A stretch of DNA of 33,550 bases from Acidobacteriota bacterium (GTDB lineage Bacteria; Acidobacteriota; Vicinamibacteria; Vicinamibacterales; UBA2999), in assembly GCA_016190945.1 (NCBI GenBank), contig JACPPO010000018.1, positions 1 to 33,550 on the forward strand. The letters are read 5' to 3'. The position numbers and the translations under genes are program-made. The number at the start of each line of letters is the position of its first letter. The stretch's first letter is position 1. Shown one piece after another: positions 6,510 to 24,115 of the stretch. Below the pieces are notes generated by a model. The model made no database searches. It had not been told where the DNA came from and was given only the letters and a program-made list of their open reading frames with translations.

Positions 6510-7457
6510 TTAGCCCAGTCCCCCGCCCGCCAGCAGCGCGGCGACACGTCGGCCCGTCGGATCGATGAGCCAGAGCCAATCATCCAGCAGGAATTCCAGG
6601 CGAATCGCCAGGAGCGCGATGCGGCCCATGACGGTGTAGCCGAACGCCGCCCCGAAGGTGATCATCAAGACCCAGATGCCGGCTTTCGCAGTCGCGCCCA
6701 CGGCCCCTTGGTGCTCAAAGGAAAAAAAGAAGTAGACCAGACAGCAGAGTACCCCGACCACAATCAGCAGGTTCTGCAGGGATAACCAGGGGTCGAAGAC
6801 GCCACCGTCGATCACGGCGAGCGGCAGAATCGTGTTGCGAATCTGGACGAGAAAATCGCCGTGCAGAAACGCGATGAGGCGCAGGCCCGCCGTGGTGCCG
6901 ATGATGAAGGCGAGCGGCCACCGCGCAATCCAGCCGCCTTTGGGCGCCAGCCGCCACAACAACATCACACTCAGCACGAGCACCACGATATAGGACGGAC
7001 TCGGTTCCGCTTCCGGCCCGCTCAGGCCCGGCATCGCCCAGGCCCGCACCAGCGCCGGCCAGATCTTCCCCACCAGATTCGGGACGATCACGTCCCAGAA
7101 GCCGATCACCATCCAATACGCGGCGGATACGCCGACCAGAACCGCCTCGGCAACCTTGTAGAACGGGTTATCGCCGAACAGAAACGAAAAGATGGCGAGC
7201 GTGAAGAAGGCGGCCAGCCAGAGCCCGATCGTGCGCGGGAGGCTGAACTGGTATTCGGTCTGCGCAGGCAACGCCGCCTCGGCGCCCTGATACTCACCGT
7301 ACGTCGCGGGATCGGACTGCGTCCATCGCCCGTTGGCCACCGGGACGGCCCGTACGTATTCGCGCCCCATGCCCTCCGTGGTGAACGCACTGCGCCAGAG
7401 GAGGGCGGCGGCGCCGATGACGAGCAACGCCATCCAGAAGACATTCTCCCGCCTCAT
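6510..7457 (-). CDS. Polytopic membrane protein, last gene of the MutL-like cluster
   Basis: A 315-aa integral membrane protein with a signal-anchor-like N-terminus (FWMALLVIGAAALLW). An extracytoplasmic loop of about 50 residues follows (GREYVRAVPVANGRWTQSD...), then about seven more hydrophobic helices, one with consecutive aromatics (LVYFFFSFEH). I do not recognise a named family. Its ATG overlaps the stop of the upstream gene by 4 nt (ATGA). An excellent Shine-Dalgarno sequence (GGGGGAGGAAGCG before the ATG) shows it is translated in its own right. As the last gene of a seven-gene unit it probably forms part of the same membrane assembly; that is inference from context. Confidence 0.8.
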   Translation of the reverse strand: MRRENVFWMALLVIGAAALLWRSAFTTEGMGREYVRAVPVANGRWTQSDPATYGEYQGAEAALPAQTEYQFSLPRTIGLWLAAFFTLAIFSFLFGDNPFYKVAEAVLVGVSAAYWMVIGFWDVIVPNLVGKIWPALVRAWAMPGLSGPEAEPSPSYIVVLVLSVMLLWRLAPKGGWIARWPLAFIIGTTAGLRLIAFLHGDFLVQIRNTILPLAVIDGGVFDPWLSLQNLLIVVGVLCCLVYFFFSFEHQGAVGATAKAGIWVLMITFGAAFGYTVMGRIALLAIRLEFLLDDWLWLIDPTGRRVAALLAGGGLG

Positions 7458-8410
7458 CGCTTCCTCCCCCTGTCGATGAGGAACACGACATTCGCCACGA
7501 CGATGAGCGTGATGATCAGCAGATGCGCGACCAGTTGGGGGCCCATGCGGCGCAGGGCTTCCAGATACTTCGGATCCGCGTTGGCTCCGCCGTAGGCATC
7601 AACGACGAGCTTTTCATATTCCGCTGCCCCCTTGATCGCGCCCAACAGGCCCGGCAGCTGACGCGGTACATATGGGTAGAGGAGAGGCGCCTGGACTCCG
7701 GTGGCCCCCGCCACGAGGCGAAGCGAAGGGAACGGTGTGACGGCGTACTGCACCCATTCCTTGGTGCCGGGATAGCCCGCTGACACGCTGACGATTACCT
7801 TCATCTGCTGGATATTCGTGATCCCTTCCATCATCGGGATGTCCTGCATCGCCGTGCCGCGGCTGTCGGTCGTGTACAGCTCGCGCAGGTTCGTGACGAC
7901 GACCTTGATCACGCCCTCCTGACCCGACTTGAAGCCAAGATTGATATAGTCGCGGCCGTAGACGAGGTCACGGAAATCTGGCGTGATCACCTTGGCGATC
8001 GTGTTGTCGATCATCTGCGCGCCAAGCGGCCACAGAGCCATGAAGTACATCCGCAGCTTCTTGCTCGCGGCGTGGTACACAAACGCGGTAGCCATCGGCC
8101 CAAGCTCGCCTTCGCTCGGCGGGTCGTAGTCGAACGCCAGCAGGATCGGATCGCCGGGGTTGAGCCGATCAATCTCGTCGAACGTGGCTCGGGCGAGCAC
8201 GCTGGGCACTTCCGGAAAGGTTCGGCCTGTCACCCCGATGAAGTAGATCGGTATGAGGACAGCCCACAACAGAAGCAGGAAGATCCATCGGCGATCCAGT
8301 GTCCGCAGCGTCTCCAGCAAACCGGCGGAGACAATACGCATGACCAGCGGTATCAACGACGCGATCACGATCGCGACCAGCCACCACTGGTTGACGATGA
8401 ACTCGGTCAT
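7454..8410 (-). CDS. Membrane protein with large extracytoplasmic domain (MutL-like cluster)
   Basis: A 318-aa protein. Two hydrophobic helices lie near the N-terminus (WWLVAIVIASLIPLVMRIV and WIFLLLLWAVLIPIYFIGV), then a soluble region of about 215 residues, then one C-terminal helix (LLIITLIVVANVVFLI) ending in basic residues (DRGRKR). The soluble region includes DRLNPGDPILLAFDYDPPSE and a segment on inducing transport-like pores cannot be read from it. I recognise no catalytic motif and no family. It starts 51 bp after the upstream gene with only a weak ribosome site, and its stop overlaps the next start (ATGA). The topology, a large domain held by flanking helices, suits a complex subunit facing the periplasm. 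Confidence 0.8.
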   Translation of the reverse strand: MTEFIVNQWWLVAIVIASLIPLVMRIVSAGLLETLRTLDRRWIFLLLLWAVLIPIYFIGVTGRTFPEVPSVLARATFDEIDRLNPGDPILLAFDYDPPSEGELGPMATAFVYHAASKKLRMYFMALWPLGAQMIDNTIAKVITPDFRDLVYGRDYINLGFKSGQEGVIKVVVTNLRELYTTDSRGTAMQDIPMMEGITNIQQMKVIVSVSAGYPGTKEWVQYAVTPFPSLRLVAGATGVQAPLLYPYVPRQLPGLLGAIKGAAEYEKLVVDAYGGANADPKYLEALRRMGPQLVAHLLIITLIVVANVVFLIDRGRKR

Positions 8411-8461
8411 CCTAGTGGCCCGTCCGAACTGATTGAGTACCGCTCGCGGGAGGACATGCCG

Positions 8462-9175
8462 CTAATCCTTGCCGAGATAGGAGCGGTCGATGCCGAGCAG
8501 CACCTTGAGTGAGGTCGCCACGATGCCCAACGCGATGCCGATCATGATGGCGCGGTTCCCCGCCGTGTTGAACACGCTCATGATGTAGACGGTCAGATTC
8601 TCGAGCCGGAGCCCGGTGAAATACGCGAAGCCCGCCCACACGTCCGGATCGATCCAGCTCGTCAGCGCAACGCCCGCGAACGTCCGGCCGAGCAGGATGA
8701 TGAATGCGGTGCCGAGGAGCAGCACGGCTTCAACGTTCTTGGCTCGAAACGCCCGGAACGCCGCGGACGCGATATAGAACGCCAGGAGCGAGAACATCGT
8801 CGCCGTCAACGGCGTGAAGGCGTATTGAAACAGGTACCAGAAGGCGCTGCCCATCTGCCGGTACTGGCCCGACCAGGCAAAGTCGGGGAACTGCGCAGAG
8901 GGATTGACGCCCACTTTGACGAGACCGACGAAGAGCGTGGCGAGAAACGAGACGACGACAACGCCGGAATATCCCCACCCGCGCGCACGATCGGAGATGC
9001 GCTTCAGATGCGTCTTGAGAAGATTGCCTCCGCCAAGAATGAACGCCACCGCCGCGAGGATGTCGAACCAGATCGCCGCGAGCTCGCCCCAGTTCTGGGC
9101 AAACGGTATGAAATAGGCGACGATGAGGACGAATCCTCCGGCGGCCGTGATGAGCAGGGGACCCGTTTGTTTCAT
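8462..9175 (-). CDS. Polytopic membrane protein (MutL-like cluster)
   Basis: A 237-aa protein with about six hydrophobic helices, starting GPLLITAAGGFVLIVAYFIPF and ending LGIVATSLKVLLGIDRSYLG. A central segment contains FPDFAWSGQYRQMGSAFWYL, probably a loop between helices. No known family was recognised. ATG 9175 is preceded in frame by a GTG (9178), so the start is uncertain by one codon. Only 8 bp separate it from the stop of the FN3-DUF6754-like gene, so the two are co-transcribed. It is likely an integral subunit of the same assembly. Confidence 0.8.
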   Translation of the reverse strand: MKQTGPLLITAAGGFVLIVAYFIPFAQNWGELAAIWFDILAAVAFILGGGNLLKTHLKRISDRARGWGYSGVVVVSFLATLFVGLVKVGVNPSAQFPDFAWSGQYRQMGSAFWYLFQYAFTPLTATMFSLLAFYIASAAFRAFRAKNVEAVLLLGTAFIILLGRTFAGVALTSWIDPDVWAGFAYFTGLRLENLTVYIMSVFNTAGNRAIMIGIALGIVATSLKVLLGIDRSYLGKD

Positions 9176-9183
9176 CACGCCGC

Positions 9184-10386
9184 TCAGGTGAGCATCGTCC
9201 CGGTAAAGAAGTTGACGAGCGACTCGATGAACGCCGAACCGGTGAGGGCGGCCGCCGTGGCGCCGAGCACACCGAGAAGGATGCCTGCTCCGACCAGGAG
9301 CTTTCCGACATCCTGTCCTTTGAGGCTGCCGAGCTGATCGGGTTCACCGGACAGGTAGGCCGACGCTGCGAAGAACTCTTCCCCGATCAGCGTGTAGTCG
9401 CACGCCGCGACGAAGAACGGCAGCTGGGCAGGCTGGGCCGTACCGGCGATCTGAATGGCGCCGATGGCGTTGCCGGTCTCGGCCAGGATCAGCGACTCGG
9501 CAAAGAACGACCCCATGTAAAAGCACGCTGCGGGCTTCTCTCTGACCATCAACCCCTGGACGTACGCCACATATCCGAACTGCTCATCGGTGACGTAATA
9601 GACGCTGTCCGGGTTGTAGGCCTCGGGCCGTCCCGCGGTGAGGAACGCCGTCTGCATGGTCTCGCGCGCGGCGGTCATGACCAGCGATTTACTGGTGGGC
9701 ACTTCGAGCTTTGCATCGTACTCGGCGGCCGTCTTCGCCACTCGAGACAGGATCGTCAGACCGGCAATGGTCTGGATCTCGTTCATGTCGTTGATGCCAG
9801 GGATGAACAGGCAGGGACGGCCCATCTCCGTGGCGCGGCCCACCGCGTCATCCACGGCTTCGAGGCCGGCGATGCGCCGGAGCGTCAGCGGCATTCCCCG
9901 CCGGGCAAGCACGATAAACGCGACGACCGACCCGCACAACAGGACGAGCGTGAAGAGGAACCACACGCGCGTGCCGTCAAACCACTCCATCGTCGGAAAG
10001 ACCGGCGCCGTCGTGGCCGCGGGCGTCGACTCGAGGCTGTTGGCGCCGAGCGCCGTCACCCGGAACAGGTGCCCCGCCTCGCGATTCAGGCTGCCGACGG
10101 TCAACGCGTTCGTGCCTGCCGGTACGATGTCGACAACCGAGAAGTTCGTCTCGACGGTGCTGCGTCGCCTCACCACATAACCGCGAAGCGTGGCCTCGTC
10201 CGCCGACGCCGTCCATTGAAGATCGATGCGCGTGCCGTTGTCCCAGGAATGATCGCGCGCGGTGAGACCGGACGGCGGCGCCGGCGCCTGGCCGGCCGCA
10301 AGGGCGGGAAAGAAGAGCGCGGCGCACGCCACGGCGGCCGCTATCGAACGTTTCGCGGATCCCTTACCCTTCAATGAGCTCGACAT
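9184..10386 (-). CDS. Fibronectin type III / DUF6754-like membrane protein (MutL-like cluster)
   Basis: A protein of about 400 aa in four parts: a signal peptide (RSIAAAVACAALFFPALAAGQ); a fibronectin type III domain of about 90 residues (PPSGLTARDHSWDNGTRIDL opening, with W-T-A-S-A and GYVVRRRS strands); a membrane helix (WFLFTLVLLCGSVVAFIVLA); and a conserved-looking cytoplasmic-type region of about 200 residues (CLFIPGINDMNEIQTIAGLT, FFVAACDYTLIGEEFFAASA). A C-terminal hydrophobic pair follows. From memory the last region corresponds to DUF6754; no function is known. The start is uncertain: ATG 10386 and GTG 10407 both overlap the 3' end of the upstream gene (by 23 or 44 nt), without a clear Shine-Dalgarno sequence. 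The domain order suggests an external FN3 module joined to a membrane platform. Confidence 0.8.
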   Translation of the reverse strand: MSSSLKGKGSAKRSIAAAVACAALFFPALAAGQAPAPPSGLTARDHSWDNGTRIDLQWTASADEATLRGYVVRRRSTVETNFSVVDIVPAGTNALTVGSLNREAGHLFRVTALGANSLESTPAATTAPVFPTMEWFDGTRVWFLFTLVLLCGSVVAFIVLARRGMPLTLRRIAGLEAVDDAVGRATEMGRPCLFIPGINDMNEIQTIAGLTILSRVAKTAAEYDAKLEVPTSKSLVMTAARETMQTAFLTAGRPEAYNPDSVYYVTDEQFGYVAYVQGLMVREKPAACFYMGSFFAESLILAETGNAIGAIQIAGTAQPAQLPFFVAACDYTLIGEEFFAASAYLSGEPDQLGSLKGQDVGKLLVGAGILLGVLGATAAALTGSAFIESLVNFFTGTMLT

Positions 10387-11491
10387 TCGCGCGCGGGATG
10401 ATAGCACCGTCTCCGGTGGTGAGGGTCACTTGAAGGACCCTGGCCCGAGAACCCGACGGCAGCACCTGTGGCTCGGGCGGAAGCCCTGTCACGGTTCCGA
10501 TCGCGCCAAAATAGGGGTCCCGAATCACCCGGACCGGTGCGCCAATCTCCAGTCCGCCTCGGGTCGTGCCGGGTCCGTGTTCATCGACCGCCTCTGCCCG
10601 GCTCCAGGGGATCACCACCTCAGGACGCATCACGCCCGCCCGAATCTGCGTGGTGCCGTTGACGGCCGCGTCGGCTCCTTGCCGCGAGGCCATCAGCGTG
10701 AACGTGCGCTCGGCCATGGCAATCTGCCCGAACCCCTCAGTGACGACAACCGTAAGCCCCACCCGCTCCGAGCCGGTGATTGCCACCCCGAGCGCGTAAC
10801 CGAGAAATCGCTCCAGATCCTGGTCATCGATACCTCCGGAGACGATCGCGGCCGCGCCGACGCCGCGCGCCCGCTCGAGCGCCTCGTGGCTGACGCGCGC
10901 GCCTCCGACAACGATGCAGTCCTTCATGTCCGGGGTGATCCGCGCACCAGTGAGATCCTGATCGTGGGCCTCGCATGCGAGGCGGATCTGTCCGAAGGCT
11001 TCGCCCCCGATCCCGAAGATGCCCTGAACAAACGAGACGTCGGACTCGATGACACAACCTTCACGCGGCGCGATCTCAATGGCGCGTCCCGCGAGGTACG
11101 CGAGGACCTGCACCGGCAGCTCGGCTCCCCGGATAATCACCTGCCCCGTGACCGACGAGATCGATTCGATCGTTCCGGCGACCGCGACCTTATATTCGGT
11201 ACGGAACCGGCCGAAAATACCCTTCGTCCGCGCCAGCACCTCGCCAGGCTCGACGCGCTCCCCTTCCTTCTTCAACATGCACTCGGGCACATCGGCAGGC
11301 GGCATCGAGAGCTGCTTGGCGAGGTTGAGCGGCGTGATGTCGCCCGGCATGAATGTGTGGGCGACAACCTGCCGGGCCTCGACGCGATCGCCGACCTTGA
11401 TCAGGACCTCGCCCGGAATCGGCAGAAGGCGGCGCACCTGGTGGCGCGTGCGCGCGGTGACCCTGAGCCCGGGGGTGTAGGCTCCGCTCAT
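10364..11491 (-). CDS. Sandwich-hybrid and KOW-like soluble protein (MutL-like cluster)
   Basis: A 375-aa protein without membrane helices. The N-terminal part has two lipoyl/biotinyl-like half-motifs, PIPGEVLIKVGDRVEARQVV (about residues 24-43) and KKEGERVEPGEVLA (about 74-87), as in the sandwich-barrel-hybrid folds of RnfC/NqrA-type and membrane-fusion proteins. No Lys of a lipoylation site is apparent. The centre has an alternating helix/strand segment (AAAIVSGGIDDQDLERFLGY, TVVVTEGFG). The last 60 residues read like a KOW/SH3 barrel (GAPVRVIRDPYFGAIGTVTG, ending PRANVELIEG). ATG 11491 overlaps the MutL-like stop as ATGA, indicating translational coupling. The family has no function known to me. 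Confidence 0.8.
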   Translation of the reverse strand: MSGAYTPGLRVTARTRHQVRRLLPIPGEVLIKVGDRVEARQVVAHTFMPGDITPLNLAKQLSMPPADVPECMLKKEGERVEPGEVLARTKGIFGRFRTEYKVAVAGTIESISSVTGQVIIRGAELPVQVLAYLAGRAIEIAPREGCVIESDVSFVQGIFGIGGEAFGQIRLACEAHDQDLTGARITPDMKDCIVVGGARVSHEALERARGVGAAAIVSGGIDDQDLERFLGYALGVAITGSERVGLTVVVTEGFGQIAMAERTFTLMASRQGADAAVNGTTQIRAGVMRPEVVIPWSRAEAVDEHGPGTTRGGLEIGAPVRVIRDPYFGAIGTVTGLPPEPQVLPSGSRARVLQVTLTTGDGAIIPRANVELIEG

Positions 11492-13320
11492 GAGTGTCTT
11501 GTCAACAGCGGCGCAAGCTCGGGATAGAGGCCGAGCGCGGCGCCCCACCGCTCGACCATCTCGCGGCTGGCGTCGCGTGCGGTCGGAACCACAAGCGGAC
11601 GCCCGCGGGCGTCCAGGATCATGCCAACCGTGCCGCCCCGCACCTCACGCTCGACGCGCTTGCCGGGTCCTCCGCCGCAATCGAAGCCCCGCTCCGGATC
11701 GATGATCACGATGGCGGTCTCCCTCTCGCCGAGCGGCACCAAGCGCAGGTCGCCATACAGCATTTCGCCGGACTCCTCGCGGTCGCCCGTGCGAATCGAG
11801 AAGCGGAAGCATGGACGACCGGCTTTGCCCGCGCCCCGTGGCGCGATGCATGCGCCGAGATGGATCAGGCAGTCGCGATCGAAGACCTCGAGGGACGCCT
11901 GCGGGTGCACCTGCGCCAGGACGCCGAGGTGCGGCATCATGAAAATCGAGTCCTTGGCGAGTGTCGTGAAGCCCTCGGGCTCGAATGCATCGACGAGCAT
12001 CATCGCCGTCTGATGCATGCGGGGGGCATGTGACAACACCCCTCCGGATGCCACGAGCAATCCCAGCTTCATGCTGTCCACGATCGTCCGGCCGGACGCG
12101 TCCTGGCTGAACGTGTCGCCCACGGTTCGCTGCTGTTGCACGCCCCTCAGCGTGGTGGCGAATTCCTTGTGCTGGGCGTAGGCGAGCCGCAGCGCCTCCC
12201 GCGCGACCGCCTGCTCGAACACCAGCGCCTCGAGCGTCTGCGGAATGGTCGTCGGTCGGATCATCTTGTTCTTGACGCGATTGCGGAGCTCTCGCTCGTC
12301 CATGTCGAACGGCACCCACCGCAGCACGTTGGCCATGCCTGCTTCGGCACATACGTTCGCGATGGAGTAGCTCATGCCCAGATTTGCGCTGACCGTTCGA
12401 TTGAATGTGCTGTCGAAGACGCTGAAGACGTCGGTCGTGGCGCCGCCGATGTCGACGCCGACGACGTTGATGCCCTGCCGGCTGGCAATGGTCTGGAGAA
12501 TGTCGCCGACCGCGGCAGGCGTGGGTACGATCGGCGCGTCAGTCCACATCATGAGCTTGTCGTACCCGGGCGCGTGCGCCATCACGTGCTCGAGAAACAA
12601 GTCGTGGATCGCGTCGCGCGCCGGACCAAGATTCTCGCGCTCGAGCACCGGTCGCAGATTGTCGACCACCGTCAGCGCGAACCCTTCCTTGATCACGTTC
12701 CGCACCAGCGGGGCCGCGTCGCGGTTTCCCGCGTAGACGATCGGTAACGTGTACTCGCTGCCAAAGCGGGGCTTCGGCTTGGCTGGCGCGATGAGCTCGG
12801 CTATCTGCACCACATGCGTCGTCGTACCGCCGTCCACGCCACCCGAGATCAGCATGATGTCTGGACGCAGCTCGCGGATGCGCTGAATCTGTTCATGCGG
12901 CCGGCGCCTGTCGTTGGACGCGATCACATCCATGACGATGGCGCCGGCGCCCAGGGCGGCGCGCTTGGCACTCTCGGCGGTCATCTCCCGCACCACGCCG
13001 GCCACCATCATTTGCAGACCACCGCCGGCGCTGGACGTCGAGATGTAGATATCGCAGCCTTCAGTCGCAGTCGCCGGCCGGAGAATACGGCCCTCGCCGC
13101 TGACGAGTCGCCTCCCGGCCAGCTCCTGCACTTCGGTCACCGCGTTGATCACACCCAGGGTCACATCGGCGAACGGCGCCTCCACCGTCGTCGGCGCTTC
13201 GCCACGATGCGTCTGGCGGTACACGCCGTCGACCAGCTCAATGAGAATCGCTTTGGTGGTCGTGCTGCCGCAGTCCGTGGCGAGGATCACCCGGATGTTG
13301 GTGGGATCGGCCGGCGTCAC
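11488..13320 (-). CDS. Glutamate mutase L-like (MutL/GlmL) ASKHA ATPase, extended C-terminus
   Basis: A 610-aa protein with the actin/Hsp70/sugar-kinase ATPase motifs of the MutL family: phosphate-1 loop TDCGSTTTK (about residues 15-23), phosphate-2 GVDIGGATTDV (288-298) and adenosine motif LVASGGVLSHAP (422-433). MutL accompanies the B12-dependent glutamate mutase in clostridia and is thought to act as a reactivase or chaperone. No mutase genes (MutS/MutE-like) lie here, so the partner is probably different. At 610 aa it exceeds the roughly 460 aa I recall for clostridial MutL by a C-terminal region of about 150 aa containing a Cys-Gly-Gly-Gly-Pro-Gly turn. The start is GTG 13320, overlapping the upstream stop (GTGA), with GGAG 5 nt before it. 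The family call is firm; the function in this cluster is unknown. Confidence 0.88.
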   Translation of the reverse strand: MTPADPTNIRVILATDCGSTTTKAILIELVDGVYRQTHRGEAPTTVEAPFADVTLGVINAVTEVQELAGRRLVSGEGRILRPATATEGCDIYISTSSAGGGLQMMVAGVVREMTAESAKRAALGAGAIVMDVIASNDRRRPHEQIQRIRELRPDIMLISGGVDGGTTTHVVQIAELIAPAKPKPRFGSEYTLPIVYAGNRDAAPLVRNVIKEGFALTVVDNLRPVLERENLGPARDAIHDLFLEHVMAHAPGYDKLMMWTDAPIVPTPAAVGDILQTIASRQGINVVGVDIGGATTDVFSVFDSTFNRTVSANLGMSYSIANVCAEAGMANVLRWVPFDMDERELRNRVKNKMIRPTTIPQTLEALVFEQAVAREALRLAYAQHKEFATTLRGVQQQRTVGDTFSQDASGRTIVDSMKLGLLVASGGVLSHAPRMHQTAMMLVDAFEPEGFTTLAKDSIFMMPHLGVLAQVHPQASLEVFDRDCLIHLGACIAPRGAGKAGRPCFRFSIRTGDREESGEMLYGDLRLVPLGERETAIVIIDPERGFDCGGGPGKRVEREVRGGTVGMILDARGRPLVVPTARDASREMVERWGAALGLYPELAPLLTRHS

Positions 13321-13661
13321 GGCGCTCCGGGAGGCGGCGTACTCCGGGTGGTGCGTTCGGCTTCCATCGCCTCGAGGCGCTCCGCGATGTAGTCGATGGA
13401 CCCGCGCTGTTCCAGAAAGGTCGTGAAGTGGTCGTACGCGGCCGCGTCCGTCAGGACGACCAGGAATGGCTGGAAGAAGTGAAGCAGCTGCGCGGTGACA
13501 TAGTTGAGCGGCCGGCTCATTTCGAGCGTGAGCAGCGCGGGACCCGACAGGCGACGTCGAACTACCTCGCGGCAGACGCTTTCAATGACGAGCCGCTGCC
13601 CCTCGTTCGGTTGAGCCGGCCCGGGAGCGTCGGCCGCGAACGCGTGCTTCAACCACTCCAT
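13317..13661 (-). CDS. Small helical protein, first gene of the MutL-like cluster
   Basis: A 114-aa protein that I do not recognise. The middle is predicted to be amphipathic helices with a conspicuous aromatic patch (SRPLNYVTAQLLHFFQPFLV), followed by a charged helix (YIAERLEAMEAERTT) and a Pro-rich tail (PPPGAP). No signal peptide or full membrane helix is seen. Its stop overlaps the MutL-like GTG start by 4 nt, so the two products are probably made in fixed ratio and may bind each other. The ATG at 13661 has no good ribosome site, and only 42 bp separate it from the M32 peptidase gene upstream, so read-through from that gene is possible. Confidence 0.75.
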   Translation of the reverse strand: MEWLKHAFAADAPGPAQPNEGQRLVIESVCREVVRRRLSGPALLTLEMSRPLNYVTAQLLHFFQPFLVVLTDAAAYDHFTTFLEQRGSIDYIAERLEAMEAERTTRSTPPPGAP

Positions 13662-13703: not shown

Positions 13704-15203
13704 CTAGGAGTAGATCCCTCTGTACTTGCTCTCGAGATAACGAAGGTATGGCTCCGGATCGATCGATGAACCGGTCACCCGCTTCACAAGTTCTCGCGGC
13801 TGATACATCCGACCGTACTGGTGAATCTCCGACCCTAGCCACGAGCGCAGCGCCGAGAAGTCCCCCCGCCGAATCTGGTCATCCCGTGCCGGATCGATCG
13901 CCTGGAACTTGTCCCACAGCTGGGCCGCGATGAGGTTGCCAAGCGTGTAGGTCGCGAAATACCCGAGCAGACCCGCCGACCAATGAATGTCTTGCAGGAC
14001 GCCCGACGCGTCATTCGGAGGAGTGATTCCGAGGTATTCCTGCATTCTGCTGTTCCACGCCTCGGGCAGATCTTCGACCGCAATGCCGCCCTCGACGAGC
14101 GCGATCTCGAGCTCGACCCGCAGCATGACGTGCAGGTTATAGGTGGCTTCGTCGGCTTCGACTCTGATGAGCGAACGCTCAACCTTGTTGATGCCCTTGT
14201 AGAACTGCGGCAGGGTTACTCCGCCAAGCTGGGACGGAAAGCGCGCCTGAAGCTTCGGAAAAAAGTGCTCCCAGAACGGCAGCGACCGGCCGACGAGGTT
14301 CTCCCAGAGCCGGCTTTGGGACTCATGCACGCCCAGAGACGCGCCGCCTTCGAGCTGCGTCCGGTGATGCGCACCGCTCACGCCCTGTTCGTACAGCCCA
14401 TGCCCGGCTTCGTGCATCGCTCCAAACAGCAGGCCGAAGGGTTGTCCTTCCACGAACCGCGTCGTCATGCGCACATCATCGGCGCCAAACGCCGTAGCAA
14501 ACGGATGCACCGACTTGTCCTGACGCCCGTGGGCCCAGTCAAAGCCGAACGCGGTAATGACATCGACTGCGAACGCCCAGAGCTCCTGCTCGGCGTACGG
14601 CACGTGAAGAAACGCAGCGGCGATCGGTGGCCGCTCGGCTAACGCGCGAATGAGCTCCACTTGCCGCGGCCGCAGCGTGCCGAGTATCGCTTTGACGTCC
14701 GCGGTCTTCATGCCGGGCTCGTAATCGTCGAGCAGAACGTCGTAGGGGTGATCGGCTGAAGGAAAAAACGTGACGTATCGCCTTTTCAGGCCGATGATGG
14801 CCTCGAGATGCGGCTGGAAGATCGAAAAGCTGCAGGCCGATCGCGCCCGAGCCCACGCCGGCTGAGCCGCCGACACGATGCGGGCCTGCTCCGCCACGAA
14901 ATCGGCCGGCACCTTGGTGGCTTTGTCATAATCGCGCGCGGTGACCGCGATCATCCGGGACAGCGAAGAATCAGGGTCGAGCCCGCCACGATGCCCATTC
15001 AGCTGATCGAGCGCCTCGCCGACCGCGTCCGCGGTGAGCTTCTCGTGAGCAAGCCTCCGGATTGTCGCCAGCATCTCGCCGTGGACCTGGGCGCCCCCCT
15101 CGGGCATGCACACCCGCTCGTCCCACTCCAGGAGGTCCGCGGCATGCCTGAGGTCGGCGACCTCGCCGACGAGCTTCGTCAGTCTGTTCAGTGGTGTGCT
15201 CAT
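13704..15203 (-). CDS. Carboxypeptidase of family M32 (thermostable carboxypeptidase Taq type)
   Basis: A 499-aa protein, the usual length of M32 metallocarboxypeptidases, which remove C-terminal residues in the cytoplasm. The HExxH zinc motif is His264-Glu265-Ala-Gly-His268 within GAMHEAGHGLYEQG. The third ligand is the Glu of GVHESQSRLWEN (about residue 294), a family hallmark. Other M32 marks are LLEWDERVCMPEGG near the N-terminus and IRVEADEATYNLHVMLR near residue 350. No signal peptide is present. Twenty-five bp separate it from the pterin dehydratase gene upstream and 42 bp from the MutL-like cluster downstream, all in the same direction. Confidence 0.95.
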   Translation of the reverse strand: MSTPLNRLTKLVGEVADLRHAADLLEWDERVCMPEGGAQVHGEMLATIRRLAHEKLTADAVGEALDQLNGHRGGLDPDSSLSRMIAVTARDYDKATKVPADFVAEQARIVSAAQPAWARARSACSFSIFQPHLEAIIGLKRRYVTFFPSADHPYDVLLDDYEPGMKTADVKAILGTLRPRQVELIRALAERPPIAAAFLHVPYAEQELWAFAVDVITAFGFDWAHGRQDKSVHPFATAFGADDVRMTTRFVEGQPFGLLFGAMHEAGHGLYEQGVSGAHHRTQLEGGASLGVHESQSRLWENLVGRSLPFWEHFFPKLQARFPSQLGGVTLPQFYKGINKVERSLIRVEADEATYNLHVMLRVELEIALVEGGIAVEDLPEAWNSRMQEYLGITPPNDASGVLQDIHWSAGLLGYFATYTLGNLIAAQLWDKFQAIDPARDDQIRRGDFSALRSWLGSEIHQYGRMYQPRELVKRVTGSSIDPEPYLRYLESKYRGIYS

Positions 15204-15228: not shown

Positions 15229-15594
15229 CTAACGGCGTGGTGAACCGCTCCGGACGAACTTTTCCGACGTCCCTCTGAGCGCGGCGCCCGCGGCCGGCCG
15301 CCACAGCGCCACGTTCTCGAACATACGGGCGATCTCGAAGTCCTTCTCGGTGATGCCTTTGGCGCTGTGGGTTGACAGGGCCACGGTGACGCGTCCCCAT
15401 GACACGGTCAGATCCGGATGGTGATCGGCCGCCTCCGCGCAGAAGCCAATCGCATTGACCAGCATCAGCGTCGTCGGCCAGCCGTCGGTTTCGTAGACTC
15501 GCTGAATCGATCCGCCCTCGTAAAACCACCCTGGTAGCCGCTGCAATCGTTCTTCGATCTGCGCGTGGCTATATGTTGTCTCCTTGTCCGGCAT
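15229..15594 (-). CDS. phhB: Pterin-4a-carbinolamine dehydratase (4a-hydroxytetrahydrobiopterin dehydratase)
   Basis: A 121-aa protein of the PCD/DCoH family, which dehydrates 4a-hydroxytetrahydropterin in pterin recycling. Visible marks are LPGWFYEGGSIQRVYE near the start, the catalytic His-His-Pro-Asp-Leu (EAADHHPDL, His58-His59) and the T-H-S-A-K-G-I-T-E-K-D segment with the third catalytic His (about residue 76). The core is complete by about residue 97, and the last 20 residues are an extension. The ATG has GAGG 5 nt upstream. It follows the pterin synthase homologue by 7 bp, so the two are co-transcribed. No aromatic amino acid hydroxylase is encoded here, so the physiological partner is open; PCD homologues also serve other tetrahydropterin-dependent enzymes. 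Confidence 0.92.
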   Translation of the reverse strand: MPDKETTYSHAQIEERLQRLPGWFYEGGSIQRVYETDGWPTTLMLVNAIGFCAEAADHHPDLTVSWGRVTVALSTHSAKGITEKDFEIARMFENVALWRPAAGAALRGTSEKFVRSGSPRR

Positions 15595-15601
15595 CGCGAC
15601 C

Positions 15602-16105
15602 TCACTTCCATGTCAGCCGACACGCCGCGGATTGCCCGAAGTTTTCCTCGAGCTCCATCTCGATGGCCGTCAGCCCCGGGACACCGGCCGTGTCGAGCGC
15701 CGCGCGCAGGCGATCGGCCAGGAGTCGCGCCAGCATTTCCACCGTCGTATTCGGAATCGGCAGGAGCGCGCAATCCCGGCGCGGGAACACGTATCGCGGC
15801 TGGCCGTCGACCGCGACCTTCACGGTCTCCCCTCCTTCAACGACACCAATCCGCGTGCTCTCGAGCGGCAGCAGCACCAGGTGGTCGATCTCGCCGCACA
15901 GGCGGCGCATGATCCGCTTGACCTCGACGAAGTCGATGACCCACCCGGTGTCCCGATCGAGTTCACCCTCAATCGTCACGCGCGCGCGGTAATTGTGGCC
16001 GTGCAGGCCCTCACAGCGGTGGCCGGCGAAGGTAATGAAATGAGCCGACGCGAAGACGAGGTCGTCCTTTGTCACCGACACGCGAAACTGCCCGCGTCGC
16101 TGCAT
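15602..16105 (-). CDS. 6-pyruvoyl/6-carboxy-tetrahydropterin synthase family protein (QueD-like)
   Basis: A 167-aa protein of the PTPS/QueD family, which converts dihydroneopterin triphosphate to a 6-substituted tetrahydropterin (biopterin or queuosine branch). Zinc ligands are His22, His35 and His37 (FASAHF and LHGHNY), with the catalytic Cys31 (GHRCEG) and the Asp74-His75 pair (EIDHLV). A 30-residue insertion (GGETVKVAVDGQPRYVFPRR) precedes the conserved PNTTVEMLA. The ATG at 16105 is chosen because AGAGGA lies 4 nt upstream. The frame runs on to an ATG at 16213 that lacks a ribosome site and would add an Ala/Pro-rich 36-residue extension. Pairing with PCD favours tetrahydropterin metabolism; queuosine synthesis cannot be excluded. 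Confidence 0.88.
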   Translation of the reverse strand: MQRRGQFRVSVTKDDLVFASAHFITFAGHRCEGLHGHNYRARVTIEGELDRDTGWVIDFVEVKRIMRRLCGEIDHLVLLPLESTRIGVVEGGETVKVAVDGQPRYVFPRRDCALLPIPNTTVEMLARLLADRLRAALDTAGVPGLTAIEMELEENFGQSAACRLTWK

Positions 16106-16109
16106 CACA

Positions 16110-16115
16110 TCCTCT
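16110..16115 (-). promoter_or_regulatory. Shine-Dalgarno site that decides the pterin synthase start
   Basis: AGAGGA on the minus strand, 4 nt before ATG 16105. The competing in-frame ATG at 16213 has no comparable site. Confidence 0.55.
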
Positions 16116-16220
16116 GCTGGCGGAAGGGAAGGAGACGGCGCTGCCGCGGCCGCGACGACCGGCTGCGCGACAGTGTTCCGGGAGGTGGCTTCAGCGTGCG
16201 CCTCCAGGTTCATCGAGGGT

Positions 16221-18112: not shown

Positions 18113-18171
18113 CGTAGGGCTCGCCCTCCGGCGGGAACCCCGCCTCGCGCGGCGCGAAGCCGCGCCCTACG
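18113..18171. repeat. GC-rich palindromic repeat that supplies the RND pump stop codon
   Basis: CGTAGGGC (18113-18120) and GCCCTACG (18164-18171) flank an inner hairpin, GCGCGGCGCGAAGCCGCGC. The TAG in the right arm, read on minus, is the stop codon of the RND pump gene (18169-18167). The form is like dispersed REP-type repeats of high-GC genomes. It may also stabilise or end the transcript. Confidence 0.5.
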
Positions 18172-21100
18172 ATGTCGTCACACGGCCGTACTTCAGGTAC
18201 AGCGTCGGGACCACAAACATGTTCAGCAGCGTCGAGGTCGTCAGCCCGCACAGAATCACGATCGCCATCGGCGTCTGAATCTCGCTTCCAGCTTCTCCGC
18301 CGCTGAGCGCCAGCGGAACGAGCGCGAGGCCGGCGGCCATGGCCGTCATCAGAATCGGGATCAGCCGCTCGTGCGCGCCGCGTTCGACCGCTTCACGGAA
18401 GTTCGTCACCCCTTCGACCTGCATCAGATGACGGATGTGCGAGACCAGCATGATGCCGTTGCGGGTGGCGATACCGAACAGGGTGATGAAGCCGATGATG
18501 GACGCCACGCTCAGCACGCCGCCCGCCAGAAACACGCCGACGACCCCGCCGATGAGCGCGAGGGGCAGGTTCAGCATGACGAGCAACGCGTCGCGCGGGC
18601 GGCCGAACGCGAGCACCAGGATCATGAAGAGGCCGACAATCACGGCGGCGCCGAGAACCATCAGCCGGTCGGTGGCGCTCTGCTGACTCTCGAACTGCCC
18701 GCCGTACTCGACCCGGTAGCCGGCCGGCATGGCGACCTGCTGCCCGATCGCCGCCTGGATGTCCTCGACGAGGCTGCCCAGATCGCGGCCGCTGACGTTG
18801 CACGATACGACAATCCGCCGCTGGACGTTTTCGCGCAGGATCATGTTCGCGCCCATCTCGCGGCGGACGTCCGCCAGTACGCGAATCGGCACCGTCCGAC
18901 CCGTGGGCGTGTGCACGGGCAGGTCGGCAATGCGCTCGAAGTCGACTGCGGCCGCGGGATCGAGCTTGACGACCAGATCGAACGCCGTGGCGCGGTCGAA
19001 GACGCGTCCGACGAGCGTTCCGCCAAAGCTCGTCTCGATCGCCTCGGCGACGTCCTGAATGCGCAGCCCGTACCGGGCGATCGCGGGCCGGTTCAGTACG
19101 AACCGGATGAACGGAATCTCCGTCTGCTGCTCGAGGGTGAGGTCTGCCACGCCCACGACGCCGCTCATCGCCTCGCGCACCCGCTCGCCGACGCGGCGCA
19201 GCGTCGCGAGGTCGTCGCCGACGATCTTCACGGCAATGTTCGCGCGCGTGCCCGACAGCATGTGGTCGATGCGATGCGAAATCGGCTGCCCGATCGCGAC
19301 ATTCGTCCCTGGCAGCCCGCCGAAGTCGCGCCGCAGCGCCGCCAGCAGCGCTTCGCGCGGACGAGCGCTCTCGCGCAGGCCGACGTCAATCTCGGCCGAT
19401 TCGACCCCCTGCACGTGCTCGTCCAGCTCCGCGCGGCCGGTCCGCCGGGCCGTGGCGACGACCTCCGGCTGCGCCAGCAGGATCCGCTCGACGCGGCCTC
19501 CGATCTCGTTCGATTTGTCCAGCGACGTTCCCGGCAGCGTGTTCACGCTGATCGTCAGGCTGCCTTCGTGGAACTCCGGAAGGAACGCGGTACCAAACCG
19601 GGTCATCGCAAGTACGGCCCCGGCAAGGAGCACCACCGAGGTCGCCGTGACGAGAGCCGGACGATCGAGCGCGTATGGCAACCCCCCGGCAAAGCGTGCT
19701 TTCAGGGTGCGCCCCAGCCACCCCTCGTGGCCGCGCACAATCGTGGCGGCTCCCGGAAGGAACGCCCCGCACAGCGCCGGCGTGACGACGATGGCCACGC
19801 CGAGCGAGGCCAGCAGCGCCACGATGTAGGCATACGCCAGCGGGGTCAGCAGACGGCCCTCCACGCCGGTCAGACCAAAGATCGGGAGAAAAACCAGCAC
19901 GATAATGATGGTCGCGAAGACGATCGAGGGGCGGATCTCGAGCGTCGCGTCGCGCACGACCACGGCGGCGGATCGGCGCTGCTCCGGCGGCAGCACGGTG
20001 TTCTCGCGCAGCCGCCGCACGACGTTCTCGACGTCGATAATGGCGTCGTCGACCAGCGCCCCGATCGCAATCGCCAGGCCGCCGAGCGTCATCGTGTTGA
20101 TCGTGACGCCGAAGCCACGCAGCACGAGGATGGCAGCGGCCAGCGAGAGCGGCATGGCCGTGAGGGTGATTGTCCCTGCGCGCGTGTTTGCGAGGAAGAC
20201 GAGCACAACGGCTATGACAAGAACTCCGCCGTCGCGCAGCGCCTCGATCACGTTGTTGACCGCGACCTGAATGAAGTCGGCCTGCCGGAAGATCCGGCGG
20301 TCGATCGTGACGCCCTGGGGGAGCTCCCGCTGCAGCGCGTCCAGCTCGCGGTCGAGCCGCCGGGTCACCTCGATGGTGTTCGCGCCGGGCTGCTTCTGCA
20401 CGCCGACGATCACGGCCGGCTTCCCGCTGCGCGATCCCTCGCCACGCTTGAGGGCCGCGCCTTCCCGCACGTCGGCGACATCCCTGATCAGCACGGAACG
20501 GTTTCCCCGCATCGCCACAACGCTCTCGCCGATCTCGTCGGCGGTCCGCACGCGGCCAACGGCCTGGAGCACGTATTCCTGCGGGCCCTCGGTGTAGATG
20601 CCTGCCGACGCGTTCTCGCTGGCGCCGCGAGCCGCATTGAGGAGCTCCGTTAGCGACACGTTGTTCGCGCGCAGCGCCTCGGGGTGCGCCACCACCTGGA
20701 ACTGCCGCTCGGCGCCGCCGATCGGAGTTACCTGCGAGACCCCCGGCACCGCGAGCAGCCGCCGGCGGACCACCGTGTCCGCCACCGTCCGCAGCGTCAA
20801 GGGATCGACGCTCTCAGACGTCAGCGCAAAGAAAAGGATTTCGCCCATGATCGAGGAGATCGGGGCGAGCACCGGCCGCTCGGCCTGCGGCGGGAGCGCC
20901 TCCGCCACCAGCGTGAGCTTTTCCGCCACAAGCTGCCGCGCGATGTAGATGTCGGTGCCCCAGTCGAACTCCACCCACACCACGCTAATCCCGATGGCCG
21001 TGGCGGAGCGGACGCGCCGCACGCCCGAGGCGCCGTTGATGGCGCTCTCGATGGGAAACGTCACCAGTGATTCCATCTCCTCCGGCGCCATCCCGTGGCC

Positions 21101-21253
21101 TTCCGCAAGGATCGTCACCGTCGGCGCCGTCAGGTCCGGAAACACATCGACCGGCATCGCCCGGGCGCTCCAGATCCCTGCAAGCAGCAGAAGCACGGAT
21201 AGCGCGATCACAAGCCCGTGATGGTCGATGGACCATTGAATCAGGCGTCTCAT
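18167..21253 (-). CDS. Heavy-metal-type RND efflux pump (CzcA/CusA family)
   Basis: A 1028-aa inner-membrane transporter that expels metal ions or other solutes by proton antiport through the adaptor and TolC-like channel encoded upstream. Marks: N-terminal helix (LVIALSVLLLLAGIW) then PVDVFPDLTAPTV; GxxNTIEVTRRLDREL; TM4 motif GALVDDAIIDVEN (about residues 398-410); a second half beginning near ALVTATSVVLLAGAVLAM; and C-terminal QTPMAIVILCGLTTSTLLN. In TM4 the Asp402 and Glu409 of this protein match the D...E pair of the family. The additional upstream Asp that I recall from CzcA is replaced by a hydrophobic residue, which is closer to CusA. Few Met residues lie in the porter domain, so copper/silver is not secured. 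The substrate is undecided. Confidence 0.9.
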   Translation of the reverse strand: MRRLIQWSIDHHGLVIALSVLLLLAGIWSARAMPVDVFPDLTAPTVTILAEGHGMAPEEMESLVTFPIESAINGASGVRRVRSATAIGISVVWVEFDWGTDIYIARQLVAEKLTLVAEALPPQAERPVLAPISSIMGEILFFALTSESVDPLTLRTVADTVVRRRLLAVPGVSQVTPIGGAERQFQVVAHPEALRANNVSLTELLNAARGASENASAGIYTEGPQEYVLQAVGRVRTADEIGESVVAMRGNRSVLIRDVADVREGAALKRGEGSRSGKPAVIVGVQKQPGANTIEVTRRLDRELDALQRELPQGVTIDRRIFRQADFIQVAVNNVIEALRDGGVLVIAVVLVFLANTRAGTITLTAMPLSLAAAILVLRGFGVTINTMTLGGLAIAIGALVDDAIIDVENVVRRLRENTVLPPEQRRSAAVVVRDATLEIRPSIVFATIIIVLVFLPIFGLTGVEGRLLTPLAYAYIVALLASLGVAIVVTPALCGAFLPGAATIVRGHEGWLGRTLKARFAGGLPYALDRPALVTATSVVLLAGAVLAMTRFGTAFLPEFHEGSLTISVNTLPGTSLDKSNEIGGRVERILLAQPEVVATARRTGRAELDEHVQGVESAEIDVGLRESARPREALLAALRRDFGGLPGTNVAIGQPISHRIDHMLSGTRANIAVKIVGDDLATLRRVGERVREAMSGVVGVADLTLEQQTEIPFIRFVLNRPAIARYGLRIQDVAEAIETSFGGTLVGRVFDRATAFDLVVKLDPAAAVDFERIADLPVHTPTGRTVPIRVLADVRREMGANMILRENVQRRIVVSCNVSGRDLGSLVEDIQAAIGQQVAMPAGYRVEYGGQFESQQSATDRLMVLGAAVIVGLFMILVLAFGRPRDALLVMLNLPLALIGGVVGVFLAGGVLSVASIIGFITLFGIATRNGIMLVSHIRHLMQVEGVTNFREAVERGAHERLIPILMTAMAAGLALVPLALSGGEAGSEIQTPMAIVILCGLTTSTLLNMFVVPTLYLKYGRVTTS

Positions 21254-21295
21254 CCCCGCACTCGTACGTCGTGTCCGGCTTGGGCCGGACCGTGT

Positions 21296-22843
21296 TCAGT
21301 GGACATGGCCTTCAGCCGGCAATCCGCCGGCTGCCGACGCGAGCTGGACGTCGTAAGCGCCCCGCGTGACGACGCGGTCGCCCGGTTTCAGCCCGGCGCG
21401 CACACCGATGAGATCGCCGTCGCTGGTGGAGACCTCGATGTACCGGCGAGAGAAGCTCTCGCCGCCCGTCTGTACGAATACGTAGGGCCGTCCCGCCTCC
21501 GTCAACACCGCATCCTTGGGCACCGCCGGCATGCGTTGACGCGCCCCGGCGTACAGGATGGCCGTCATCGTCTGACCGATGAGCAGCTGACCCGTGCGGT
21601 TATCGACATCAAACTGCACCGGAAGCGACCGAGTCGCCTCGTCGATTACGCCGGCATCGCGCATGTCGTCCGCCTTGACGACCAGCGGATCGCTGCGGCC
21701 GGGTATCTCGAGCGCAATCTCGCGAATCTCTTCAGTCAGCGGTGCATCGGAGGCCGGCACCAGCGCCTGCAGCTCGATGCGGTTGGTCCGAACAATACGG
21801 AAGAGCGGTGCGCCTTCATCATACGAGGCGCCAAGCGCCGCGAAGACTTCCGCGAGGCGCCCGGCGATCGGGGCCCGCAGGACGAAGGAATTGCCTGCGG
21901 CAGCGCCGCCGCCGGTGCCCAGCGTCTCGTCGCGCTGGGCGAGCCTGGCCAGCGCGGCGGTCAGCCGCGCCTCGGCCACCTTCACCGCGCGCTGAGCCTC
22001 CTCGACGCGTCGCGCCGGCACCGCGCGCTCGGCCAGCAGCCGTTCGGCCCGCGCGTGGTCCGAGCGAGCGGCGTCCAGGGACGCCTGCACTTCCGCCACG
22101 CCGGACGCCAGCGTCGCCCTGTCGGCGCCATCCCCGGCGAGACGGGGTTGAATCCGCCCGAGCTCCTGCCCCGCCTCGACCGTGGTACCCAGCGGGAGAA
22201 GGCGCGTCGCCATGAAGCGTCCGGCGGCCGGCGCGGCGACCACGGCTTCTCCGCCGATGAGCGGTTCGACGACAGCAGGCACGCGGATACCGCGGCGGAG
22301 CTCCGCTTCCTGGACAAGCGCGGTGGCGAACCCGATGGTCCACTGCGGCTCCTTCAGGTACGTGATCGCCGTCGGGTCGTCTTCCCCCGAGCTCTCCGCG
22401 TCGGCGACGGCGGCCGCGGCGTCCGCGAACACGGTGATAGTTCCCAGATCGTGGCGGTCGGACAGGTCAGGAGCCTCGATCGCCAGTACCCATCGGTAGC
22501 GGCCGGCTGGCGGCATCGGGCCCAGCACGCGAAAGACGCCCGGGCGCGAGGGTTCGCTCCCCTGTACCACGATCGGCGTGCCGCCCGACTCCGGCGTGAA
22601 CTCGAGCCGCGGCCGCCCCGCCATCATCGCCGAGAAGTCGCTCAGGCGCGTCAGGTGCACGGCAAACAGCGCCTCCTGACCTCCCACGAGCGGCGGGTAC
22701 TCCATGAACAGCTCCGTCTTGTCGGTCCAGGCCGTCAGGTCGAGCGTGGGCACTTCGGCTTCAGGCGCTGCGGCGTCGCCCCCGCACGCCACTGTCACCG
22801 CGGCGATGGCCAGACATATCGCGAGTGTGTTGATAGGTTTCAT
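21296..22843 (-). CDS. RND periplasmic adaptor lipoprotein (CzcB/CusB-like)
   Basis: A 515-aa membrane-fusion protein linking the pump to the channel. The lipobox is ...AVTVACGGD with Cys20. Before the HlyD-type core there is an extra N-terminal module of about 110 residues beginning DLTAWTDKTELFMEYPPLVG, typical of heavy-metal adaptors. Then come the lipoyl half-motifs (TRLLPLGTTVEAGQELGRIQ; FVLRAPIAGRLAEV), a helical hairpin rich in Ala/Glu/Arg (about residues 225-285) and a beta-barrel with YVFVQTGGESFSRRYIEVST. It ends LPAEGHVH. ATG 22843 overlaps the TolC-like stop (ATGA) and has GGGAG 6 nt upstream; an in-frame ATG at 22855 is less likely. Forty-two bp precede the pump gene. Confidence 0.92.
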   Translation of the reverse strand: MKPINTLAICLAIAAVTVACGGDAAAPEAEVPTLDLTAWTDKTELFMEYPPLVGGQEALFAVHLTRLSDFSAMMAGRPRLEFTPESGGTPIVVQGSEPSRPGVFRVLGPMPPAGRYRWVLAIEAPDLSDRHDLGTITVFADAAAAVADAESSGEDDPTAITYLKEPQWTIGFATALVQEAELRRGIRVPAVVEPLIGGEAVVAAPAAGRFMATRLLPLGTTVEAGQELGRIQPRLAGDGADRATLASGVAEVQASLDAARSDHARAERLLAERAVPARRVEEAQRAVKVAEARLTAALARLAQRDETLGTGGGAAAGNSFVLRAPIAGRLAEVFAALGASYDEGAPLFRIVRTNRIELQALVPASDAPLTEEIREIALEIPGRSDPLVVKADDMRDAGVIDEATRSLPVQFDVDNRTGQLLIGQTMTAILYAGARQRMPAVPKDAVLTEAGRPYVFVQTGGESFSRRYIEVSTSDGDLIGVRAGLKPGDRVVTRGAYDVQLASAAGGLPAEGHVH

Positions 22844-24063
22844 GGGATCTCCCATCCACTGACGAATTCAAGTTCAATTTCCGCTTCGCGCACGGCGGCA
22901 TCGAGCGCTGCCTGCCGCACGCGCGCGGAGGACGCGGTCCGGTAGGCGTCGAGGAGTTCGAGAATGCCGCGCTCCCCGTCGTCATAGCTCACTTGCGCGA
23001 TCCGCTCGATCGCGTCGGCGCCGGAGGTCGCCGCGGCGCGATAGCGATCCGCGATATCGCGGCGCTCGATGACGGCCGCGCGCCACGCGCCGACCTGCGT
23101 CCGTACGATCAGGCGCAGCGCTTCGGCTTCGGCGCCGACCTGCGCCGCGCGCGCCCGTGCCGCGGCGCGTTCGGGACGCGCGCGATCGAACAGCGGCACG
23201 TTGAGATGCACGCTCATGATGCTGCCGACGTCCCAGGCGCCGGCATTCGACGACTTCGTGCCCGCGACCACTTCGGGCTCGGGAATCCGCCGGCGCGCCG
23301 CGGCGCGTCCCATGAATCCCGCGGCGTCCAGCTCGAGCTGCAGGGCGAGCAGCTCGCCCCGGACGACTTCAGCGCGCGCCACGAGCTCTTCGACTGAGGG
23401 CAGCATCGCCGGCGGCCGGTCGGGTCGGAGGGCCTCGATGGCACCGGCCACGGGGGCCGACGGAAAGAAGCTGGCGAGCACGCCCTGCGCTTGCGCCCGC
23501 TCCGTGGCCGCCGCCGCGCGGTCGGCCTCCACGTCGATCACCTCGCGCTCGGACCTGAGCGCATCGAATCCCGCGGCCTCACCCGCGGCTTCCCGGCGCC
23601 CCAGCGCGTCAGCCAAATCGCGCAACCGGTCCCGGCTGCGCGCCAGCTCCCGTTCACGCGTCTGCGCCACCCACAGATCCGTAAATGCCAGGCGGAGGTC
23701 CGCGCGAAGGCGCCGAATCTCGTCGTCGGCGCGGCTCGAAGCGGCCTCCACCCGTGCCGAGGCCGCGCTTACCTCGAGACGGCGGCGGCCGGTAACCGGC
23801 AGGACCTGGGCCACCGTCAGATAATTTTCGGCAGTGCCCGCTACGGCCTCGCGATTGAGTGTGACTCTTGGATTCGGCCACCGGCCGGCCGCCAGAACAT
23901 CCGCCCGCGTCACATCAACCGCGGCACGAACGGCCTGCACGCGCGGGCTTTCGGCTGACAGCCTCGCCAGCGCCTGGGACTCCGTCAGGGACAACGTTTG
24001 GGCGCCGGCGCCCGCGGGCAGCACGGCTGCGGCGAGCACGGCGCATAAGACTAGCGCGCCCAT
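22840..24063 (-). CDS. TolC-family outer-membrane channel (CzcC/CusC-like)
   Basis: A 407-aa outer-membrane efflux protein. The signal peptide is MGALVLCAVLAAAVLPAGAG. Two OEP repeats follow, with long Ala/Arg/Glu-rich helices (about residues 30-215 and 225-400); the first opens LTESQALARLSAESPRVQAV. The second contains VHLNVPLFDRARPERAAARA, the usual barrel strand followed by helix. The open frame extends to 24285, but ATG 24063 is favoured by the signal peptide and by GAGG 5-7 nt upstream. The upstream extension is Arg/Ser-rich and overlaps the His-rich gene. An intrinsic terminator lies just upstream of this start, so expression may depend on read-through. It is coupled to the adaptor gene by an ATGA overlap. 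Confidence 0.9.
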   Translation of the reverse strand: MGALVLCAVLAAAVLPAGAGAQTLSLTESQALARLSAESPRVQAVRAAVDVTRADVLAAGRWPNPRVTLNREAVAGTAENYLTVAQVLPVTGRRRLEVSAASARVEAASSRADDEIRRLRADLRLAFTDLWVAQTRERELARSRDRLRDLADALGRREAAGEAAGFDALRSEREVIDVEADRAAAATERAQAQGVLASFFPSAPVAGAIEALRPDRPPAMLPSVEELVARAEVVRGELLALQLELDAAGFMGRAAARRRIPEPEVVAGTKSSNAGAWDVGSIMSVHLNVPLFDRARPERAAARARAAQVGAEAEALRLIVRTQVGAWRAAVIERRDIADRYRAAATSGADAIERIAQVSYDDGERGILELLDAYRTASSARVRQAALDAAVREAEIELEFVSGWEIP

Positions 24064-24076
24064 AACACCTCGATCG

Positions 24077-24112
24077 AAAAAAGGAAAAGAGACAGACGGC
24101 GGATGAGCCGTC
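24077..24112 (-). terminator. Intrinsic terminator / attenuator inside the efflux operon
   Basis: GACGGC (24112-24107 on minus), a 6-nt loop and GCCGTC (24100-24095) are followed by TGTCTCTTTTCCTTTTTT (24094-24077). A 6-bp GC-rich stem and a U-rich tail begin 3 nt after the stop of the His-rich gene and end 14 nt before the TolC-like ATG. It would end or attenuate transcription between the two genes. Confidence 0.65.
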
Positions 24113-24115
24113 GAG

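Follow-up and report, generated by a model that had tools for sequence, protein, structure and literature searches.

The question raised by this locus is what an ATPase of the MutL family does among genes for membrane proteins. To our knowledge, the only role known for the MutL family is that of a partner of B12 mutases. The window analysed here, that is, the whole stretch of 33,550 nucleotides from an Acidobacteriota bacterium, contains such an ATPase gene in a compact cluster with six others.

Layout of the gene cluster

The cluster consists of seven ORFs on the minus strand, designated A to G, which run from position 13661 to position 6510 of the window and overlap or are closely spaced. 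Gene A (13317–13661, ATG start) encodes a 114-residue protein of no known family; gene B (11488–13320, GTG start) encodes a 610-residue ASKHA ATPase of the MutL family (GlmL-like, PF13941); and gene C (10364–11491) encodes a 375-residue protein with an N-terminal barrel-sandwich-hybrid part and a C-terminal KOW-like part. The other four genes encode membrane proteins: (i) D (9184–10386), in which a signal or transmembrane (TM) segment is followed by an FN3 domain, a TM helix, the α/β core of DUF6754 (PF20539) and a further TM helix; (ii) E (8462–9175), a strongly conserved polytopic protein; (iii) F (7454–8410), with TM helices on either side of a Rossmann-like α/β domain; and (iv) G (6510–7457), a second polytopic protein.

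Genes A and B overlap by 4 nt (GTGA, 13317–13320), as do B and C (11488–11491) and F and G (7454–7457). The overlap of C and D measures 23 nt with the D start at ATG 10386 and 44 nt with an alternative D start at GTG 10407; a gap of approximately 8 nt separates D from E (start at ATG 9175), and one of 51 nt separates E from F. A previous sequence-only reading had described seven same-strand genes joined in this manner, and the ORFs and overlaps are present as it described them.

An M32 carboxypeptidase gene (13704–15203) lies 42 nt upstream of A on the same strand; none was found adjoining the set at the other loci examined. A convergent DUF2079 gene lies downstream of the cluster. Promoter and terminator scans gave no signal above that of shuffled sequences. 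Elsewhere in the window, a pterin-4a-carbinolamine dehydratase gene stands beside a 6-pyruvoyl tetrahydropterin synthase-like gene (15229–16213), and an RND efflux set comprises an AcrB-like pump, a HlyD-type adaptor and an outer-membrane efflux protein (18167–24285).

The ATPase, its probable partner and the predicted membrane unit

The product of gene B matched the Pfam MutL model over its full length (positions 1–450 of 450) with 426 bits against a cut-off of 27, which bears out its earlier identification as a MutL-like ASKHA ATPase. Among the full-length B homologues, the phosphate-1 motif is kept in 65 of 67 and the phosphate-2 and adenosine motifs in all 67; this conservation suggests that B is catalytic. 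B is also the most conserved protein of the set, with a median identity of 72%. The full-length domain and the ASKHA motifs are shared with the MutL/GlmL family, from which B differs in that (i) it does not reach the cut-offs of the NCBIfam equivalogs GlmL (NF040745; 225 bits, cut-off 475) and Or-4 (NF040744; 202 bits, cut-off 600); (ii) approximately 125 C-terminal residues extend beyond the Pfam domain; and (iii) its gene is linked to C and DUF6754 genes rather than to a B12 mutase.

The window copy of C alone gave only sub-threshold domain matches. The C family as a whole matched RnfC_N (best E 1.7e-7), NQRA_N (best E 1.1e-4), Biotin_lipoyl (19 of 22 members, best E 9.8e-5) and KOW (12 of 22 members, best E 0.0036), in agreement with its previous description as a hybrid of KOW and sandwich domains. 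The likeness to RnfC and NqrA is confined to the N-terminal barrel-sandwich domain of the C family; unlike those systems, the set has no iron–sulphur or flavin subunits, and C ends in a KOW-like part. In many Marinimicrobia, B and C form a single ORF (fused ORFs at loci L004, L009, L012, L018, L023, L024, L207 and L208), and this natural fusion supports C as a direct partner of B.

Diverged B-C pairs also exist away from any DEFG genes in two Planctomycetota genomes, namely twice in G480, where they are fused (approximately 830 residues; L210, 9278–11749; L211, 9310–11814), and in G323 (L212, 8391–11329). Because these pairs exist without DEFG, B-C is an independent unit; the diverged pairs represent another, distinct use of MutL with C, and they show that the pair is not exclusive to the D–G membrane proteins. 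At L211, RnfE- and RnfA-like genes were read by eye approximately 7 kb upstream of the B-C pair.

The product of gene D is a full-length member of DUF6754 (409 bits, positions 2–251 of 257), a family whose Pfam entry gives no function. Its FN3 domain scored below the Pfam cut-off (18.1 of 25 bits) and was recognized by profile search against the PDB (titin, E 1e-26) and by predicted fold (Foldseek TM-score of approximately 0.8, by target length, to FN3 domains), so that its proposed FN3-DUF6754 architecture was recovered; FN3 matches dominated the fold search, and the model of the DUF6754 core was of low confidence. Many Marinimicrobia copies of D are only approximately 290 residues long, too short for FN3. 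E, F and G are membrane proteins, as had been proposed, with either a polytopic arrangement or 2–3 TM helices. E is 50%–79% identical to its homologues in other phyla, and in some Planctomycetota (L022, 7466–9316; L035, L025, L047 and others) it carries approximately 400 extra, repeat-like residues in one outer loop, which had no Pfam match at E ≤ 0.001. The AlphaFold2 model of F (pLDDT 82.8, pTM 0.83) is Rossmann-like and had no match at E ≤ 0.001 in the PDB or in BFVD, a set of viral structures. A, E, F and G matched no family in Pfam or NCBIfam, and profile searches against the PDB gave no significant match for any of the seven proteins except D.

Topologies of D–G were predicted from alignments using hydropathy and the positive-inside rule. 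They suggest that D has its FN3 domain outside and its DUF6754 core inside, that E has about six TM helices (5–6) with an outside loop, and that G has approximately 8 TM helices and a variable outer loop; by the positive-inside rule, the α/β domain of F probably lies outside the cytoplasm. The inner and membrane parts thus appear constant and the outer parts (the FN3 domain of D and the loops of E and G) appear to vary by lineage, which would be expected if the outside meets differing partners or cargo. Two candidate homologies were not upheld: D and F had seemed to be an inverted pair across the membrane, with cores alike by eye and in predicted secondary structure, and profile comparison gave no support for this beyond a TM helix; homology between E and G was rejected.

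Distribution, block structure and transfer between phyla

A search with D against 84,980 genomes returned 331 relatives, of which the best 80 were examined. In most of these 80, genes A to G occur in the same order and on the same strand. The conserved order was seen in Acidobacteria, including loci other than the window, Neomarinimicrobiota, Planctomycetota, and one Verrucomicrobia-labelled and one Gemmatimonadetes-labelled genome; phyla are given as labelled in the records, and the genome labelled Gemmatimonadetes falls in a phylum represented by two genomes. The gene-neighbourhood check proposed in the sequence-only reading thus yielded conserved order in distant phyla, and because the same seven genes recur in the same order across phyla, chance clustering is excluded. 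In whole-genome counts, PF20539 occurs in 4 of 297 Acidobacteriota, 50 of 199 Planctomycetota, 92 of 149 genomes of the phylum of Marinimicrobia locus L012, 1 of 195 of the phylum of L019, and all 5 genomes of the small phylum of L041, with two copies each; it was found in none of 14 well-known control genomes. The bacteria that carry the set are for the most part uncultured; the cultured Planctomycete Thalassoglobus neptunius is among the matches of the D search.

In a tree of concatenated D–G (1162 columns), the window falls within a mixed, mainly Planctomycetota clade of 16 tips (support 0.99), which is enclosed by a clade of 44 tips (support 0.999). Two other Acidobacteriota copies (L164 and L165) are placed among Planctomycetaceae, where the support of nearby nodes is moderate (0.69–0.85). 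This placement, together with the rarity of the set in Acidobacteriota, makes it likely that Acidobacteriota acquired the whole block at least twice, independently.

An eighth partner gene, which we designate H and which was not part of the earlier seven-gene description, lies directly upstream of A in 36 of the 63 loci with upstream room. Its small membrane-protein product carries a bacterial PH domain (bPH_6). H is absent from the window and was not found in the window's own genome, which is incomplete (78% complete). Homologues of A, which pairs with H in many genomes, are 95–157 residues long, and in other phyla they lie beside B, C or D.

The genes form three blocks, [H-A], [B-C] and [D-E-F-G]. 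Their order varies, they may lie apart, B and C can be joined into one ORF and DEFG can occur twice, and the blocks still co-occur. The block orders observed are A-B-C-DEFG, B-C-A-DEFG, B-C-H-A-DEFG, A-DEFG-B-C, and H-A-DEFG with B-C elsewhere. In two genomes, A-B-C and DEFG lie at separate sites (L216 and L156 in G433; L217 and L157 in G399), and at four loci A-B-C is followed by two copies of DEFG (L150, L152, L153 and L194); the duplication of DEFG as a block supports D–G as one membrane unit, as judged from gene arrangement. E is present in all 16 tested genomes that have D, also where the two genes are not adjacent. Pairwise distances correlate between all genes across 50 loci, most strongly for B/C and E/F (r = 0.94 each). 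In three genomes (G326, G349 and G456), D was present and B and C were not detected, which likely reflects assembly gaps. The sequence-only reading had named scattered homologues without co-occurrence as the outcome that would speak against a complex; the genes were instead found to co-occur, even where the blocks are separated. In some Marinimicrobia, a class-III aminotransferase gene, an aldehyde dehydrogenase gene or both lie directly downstream of G (L162, 4187–7020; L161, 13060–14406) and perhaps serve amino-acid catabolism.

Alternative explanations and the proposed machine

Co-occurrence with MutL and with glutamate mutase E (PF06368) was assessed in 80 genomes, among them DUF6754-positive (n = 40) and DUF6754-negative (n = 39) genomes of Planctomycetota and Marinimicrobia. 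Of the positive genomes, 37 of 40 have MutL (17/20 in Planctomycetota, 20/20 in Marinimicrobia), compared with 1/20 and 1/19, plus one weak match, among the DUF6754-negative ones. C is likewise present in 17/20 and 20/20 of the positive genomes, and in 0/20 and 2/19 of the negative ones, both of the latter at contig ends. PF06368 is absent from all 40 DUF6754-positive genomes and was not found in the 78% complete genome of the window (G000). It exceeded its cut-off in 1 of the 80 genomes, a Planctomycetota genome without DUF6754 (G322, contig C45, locus L213), where MutL stands directly beside glutamate mutase E; this classical arrangement serves as an internal positive control. It is therefore highly improbable that B is an ordinary MutL/GlmL-type partner (a reactivase or chaperone) of a B12 mutase encoded elsewhere, with membrane neighbours that are unrelated to it, even though PF13941, the family of B, has named NCBIfam members that act as accessory proteins in ornithine degradation and for methylaspartate mutase. 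The scores of B lie far below the cut-offs for these members, and it is linked to C–G in place of a mutase; for glutamate mutase, this explanation is largely refuted. That no mutase accompanies this MutL had been noted from the window alone, with a consistent B12-mutase link named as contrary evidence; across the 80 genomes, no such link was found for glutamate mutase E.

ASKHA-fold proteins are established parts of inner-membrane platforms, examples being PilM of type IV pili and, in type II secretion, the cytosolic part of GspL, and B might similarly be a nucleotide-binding scaffold that organizes D–G without an ATPase cycle. The B-C fusion and the constant pairing of B and C would fit such a role, which we nevertheless judge unlikely, since all ASKHA motifs are kept, phosphate loops included, B belongs to a different ASKHA family, and its membrane partners are mostly polytopic, unlike those of PilM and GspL. 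Moreover, PilN, PilO, secretin and pilin were found neither among the seven proteins nor among the listed flanking families of related loci. GspL and GspM are described as a platform in PMC3815138. That the set is merely a conserved operon, whose genes act independently and travel together as a mobile block, agrees with its clear movement by horizontal transfer; it is very unlikely in view of the two genomes that retain all the genes in separated blocks, and of the B-C fusion and correlated rates, which point to interaction.

Recurrent neighbours of the set raise two further explanations, both drawn from links that were noticed after the fact and represent few independent arrangements. The system may aid peptide uptake by working with, or modifying, an oligopeptide ABC importer of the Opp/Dpp type. 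At three Marinimicrobia loci (L154, L163 and L178), SBP_bac_5-OppB-OppC lie directly upstream of the set and OppD directly downstream; permease or SBP genes are also near it at L180, L181 and L202; at L153, a gene for a fused oligopeptide ABC ATPase separates the two DEFG copies; L194 has two SBP_bac_5 genes after its second G; and at L192, C is followed by an ABC ATPase gene that is truncated where the contig ends. The M32 carboxypeptidase gene of the window could be read in the same sense. However, Opp genes are generally common, they are missing from the remaining loci, including the window, and the Marinimicrobia cases may trace to one or two ancestral arrangements; the importer families themselves (SBP_bac_5, BPD_transp_1 and oligopeptide ABC ATPase) are not represented in A–G. 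Such a role is possible and, on balance, doubtful. Rather improbable, too, is the handling of envelope lipids or their precursors (phosphatidate, CDP-diacylglycerol, acyl chains or undecaprenyl phosphate). It is suggested by diacylglycerol kinase and CdsA genes upstream of the set in Marinimicrobia of two deep clades, by PlsX-FabH, which adjoin the downstream end of the set in Planctomycetota (PlsX at 11 loci), by FabG-like dehydrogenase, UppS and CdsA genes downstream at other loci, and by the PH domain of H. These neighbours amount to approximately three lineage-level arrangements, such housekeeping genes are vertical landmarks, and a lipid-transfer fold was found in neither D nor F.

We consider it slightly more probable than the contrary (roughly 0.55) that A–G function as one unit, and most likely as an inner-membrane machine powered by ATP, because the gene order is kept across phyla, the genes co-occur through block shuffling, B and C are fused in nature, DEFG is duplicated, distances are correlated and the ASKHA motifs are intact. 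In such a machine, B and its barrel-sandwich/KOW partner C would be the cytosolic engine; D-E-F-G would be the membrane unit, made of two membrane-anchored α/β domains (the D core predicted to be cytosolic and the F core outside) and two polytopic proteins; and A, with H where present, would be accessory. Binding or hydrolysis of ATP by B may alter the shape of C, which in turn would drive assembly, gating or transport by D–G. The sequence-only reading had proposed that the ATPase drives or assembles an envelope complex: the linkage of the genes, C as the partner of B and D–G as a unit are supported by the data, and we infer the physical complex, the coupling of energy to it and a transport-type role in the envelope.

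As a whole, the set matches no known system and is undescribed in the open-access literature searched; it lacks the defining features of the GlmL group, the Opp importers and the PilM/GspL platforms. DUF6754 is named in none of the open-access papers searched, and the papers found there on GlmL, MutL and ASKHA were unrelated or classical, with no membrane system among those on GlmL and MutL. We tentatively propose, at somewhat less than even odds, that the set represents an undescribed class of inner-membrane machine, which uses a MutL-type ASKHA ATPase in place of a P-loop ATPase, combines an exchangeable B-C engine with a D-E-F-G unit, is frequent among Planctomycetota and Marinimicrobia, and has spread to other phyla as a block. 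The presence of the set in cultured Planctomycetes makes it directly testable. If the seven genes do encode one machine, a whole conserved membrane system would have been overlooked in phyla that abound in the oceans and in soils, a membrane complex driven by an ASKHA ATPase would be added to the P-loop-driven transporters, and the MutL family would gain a second role.
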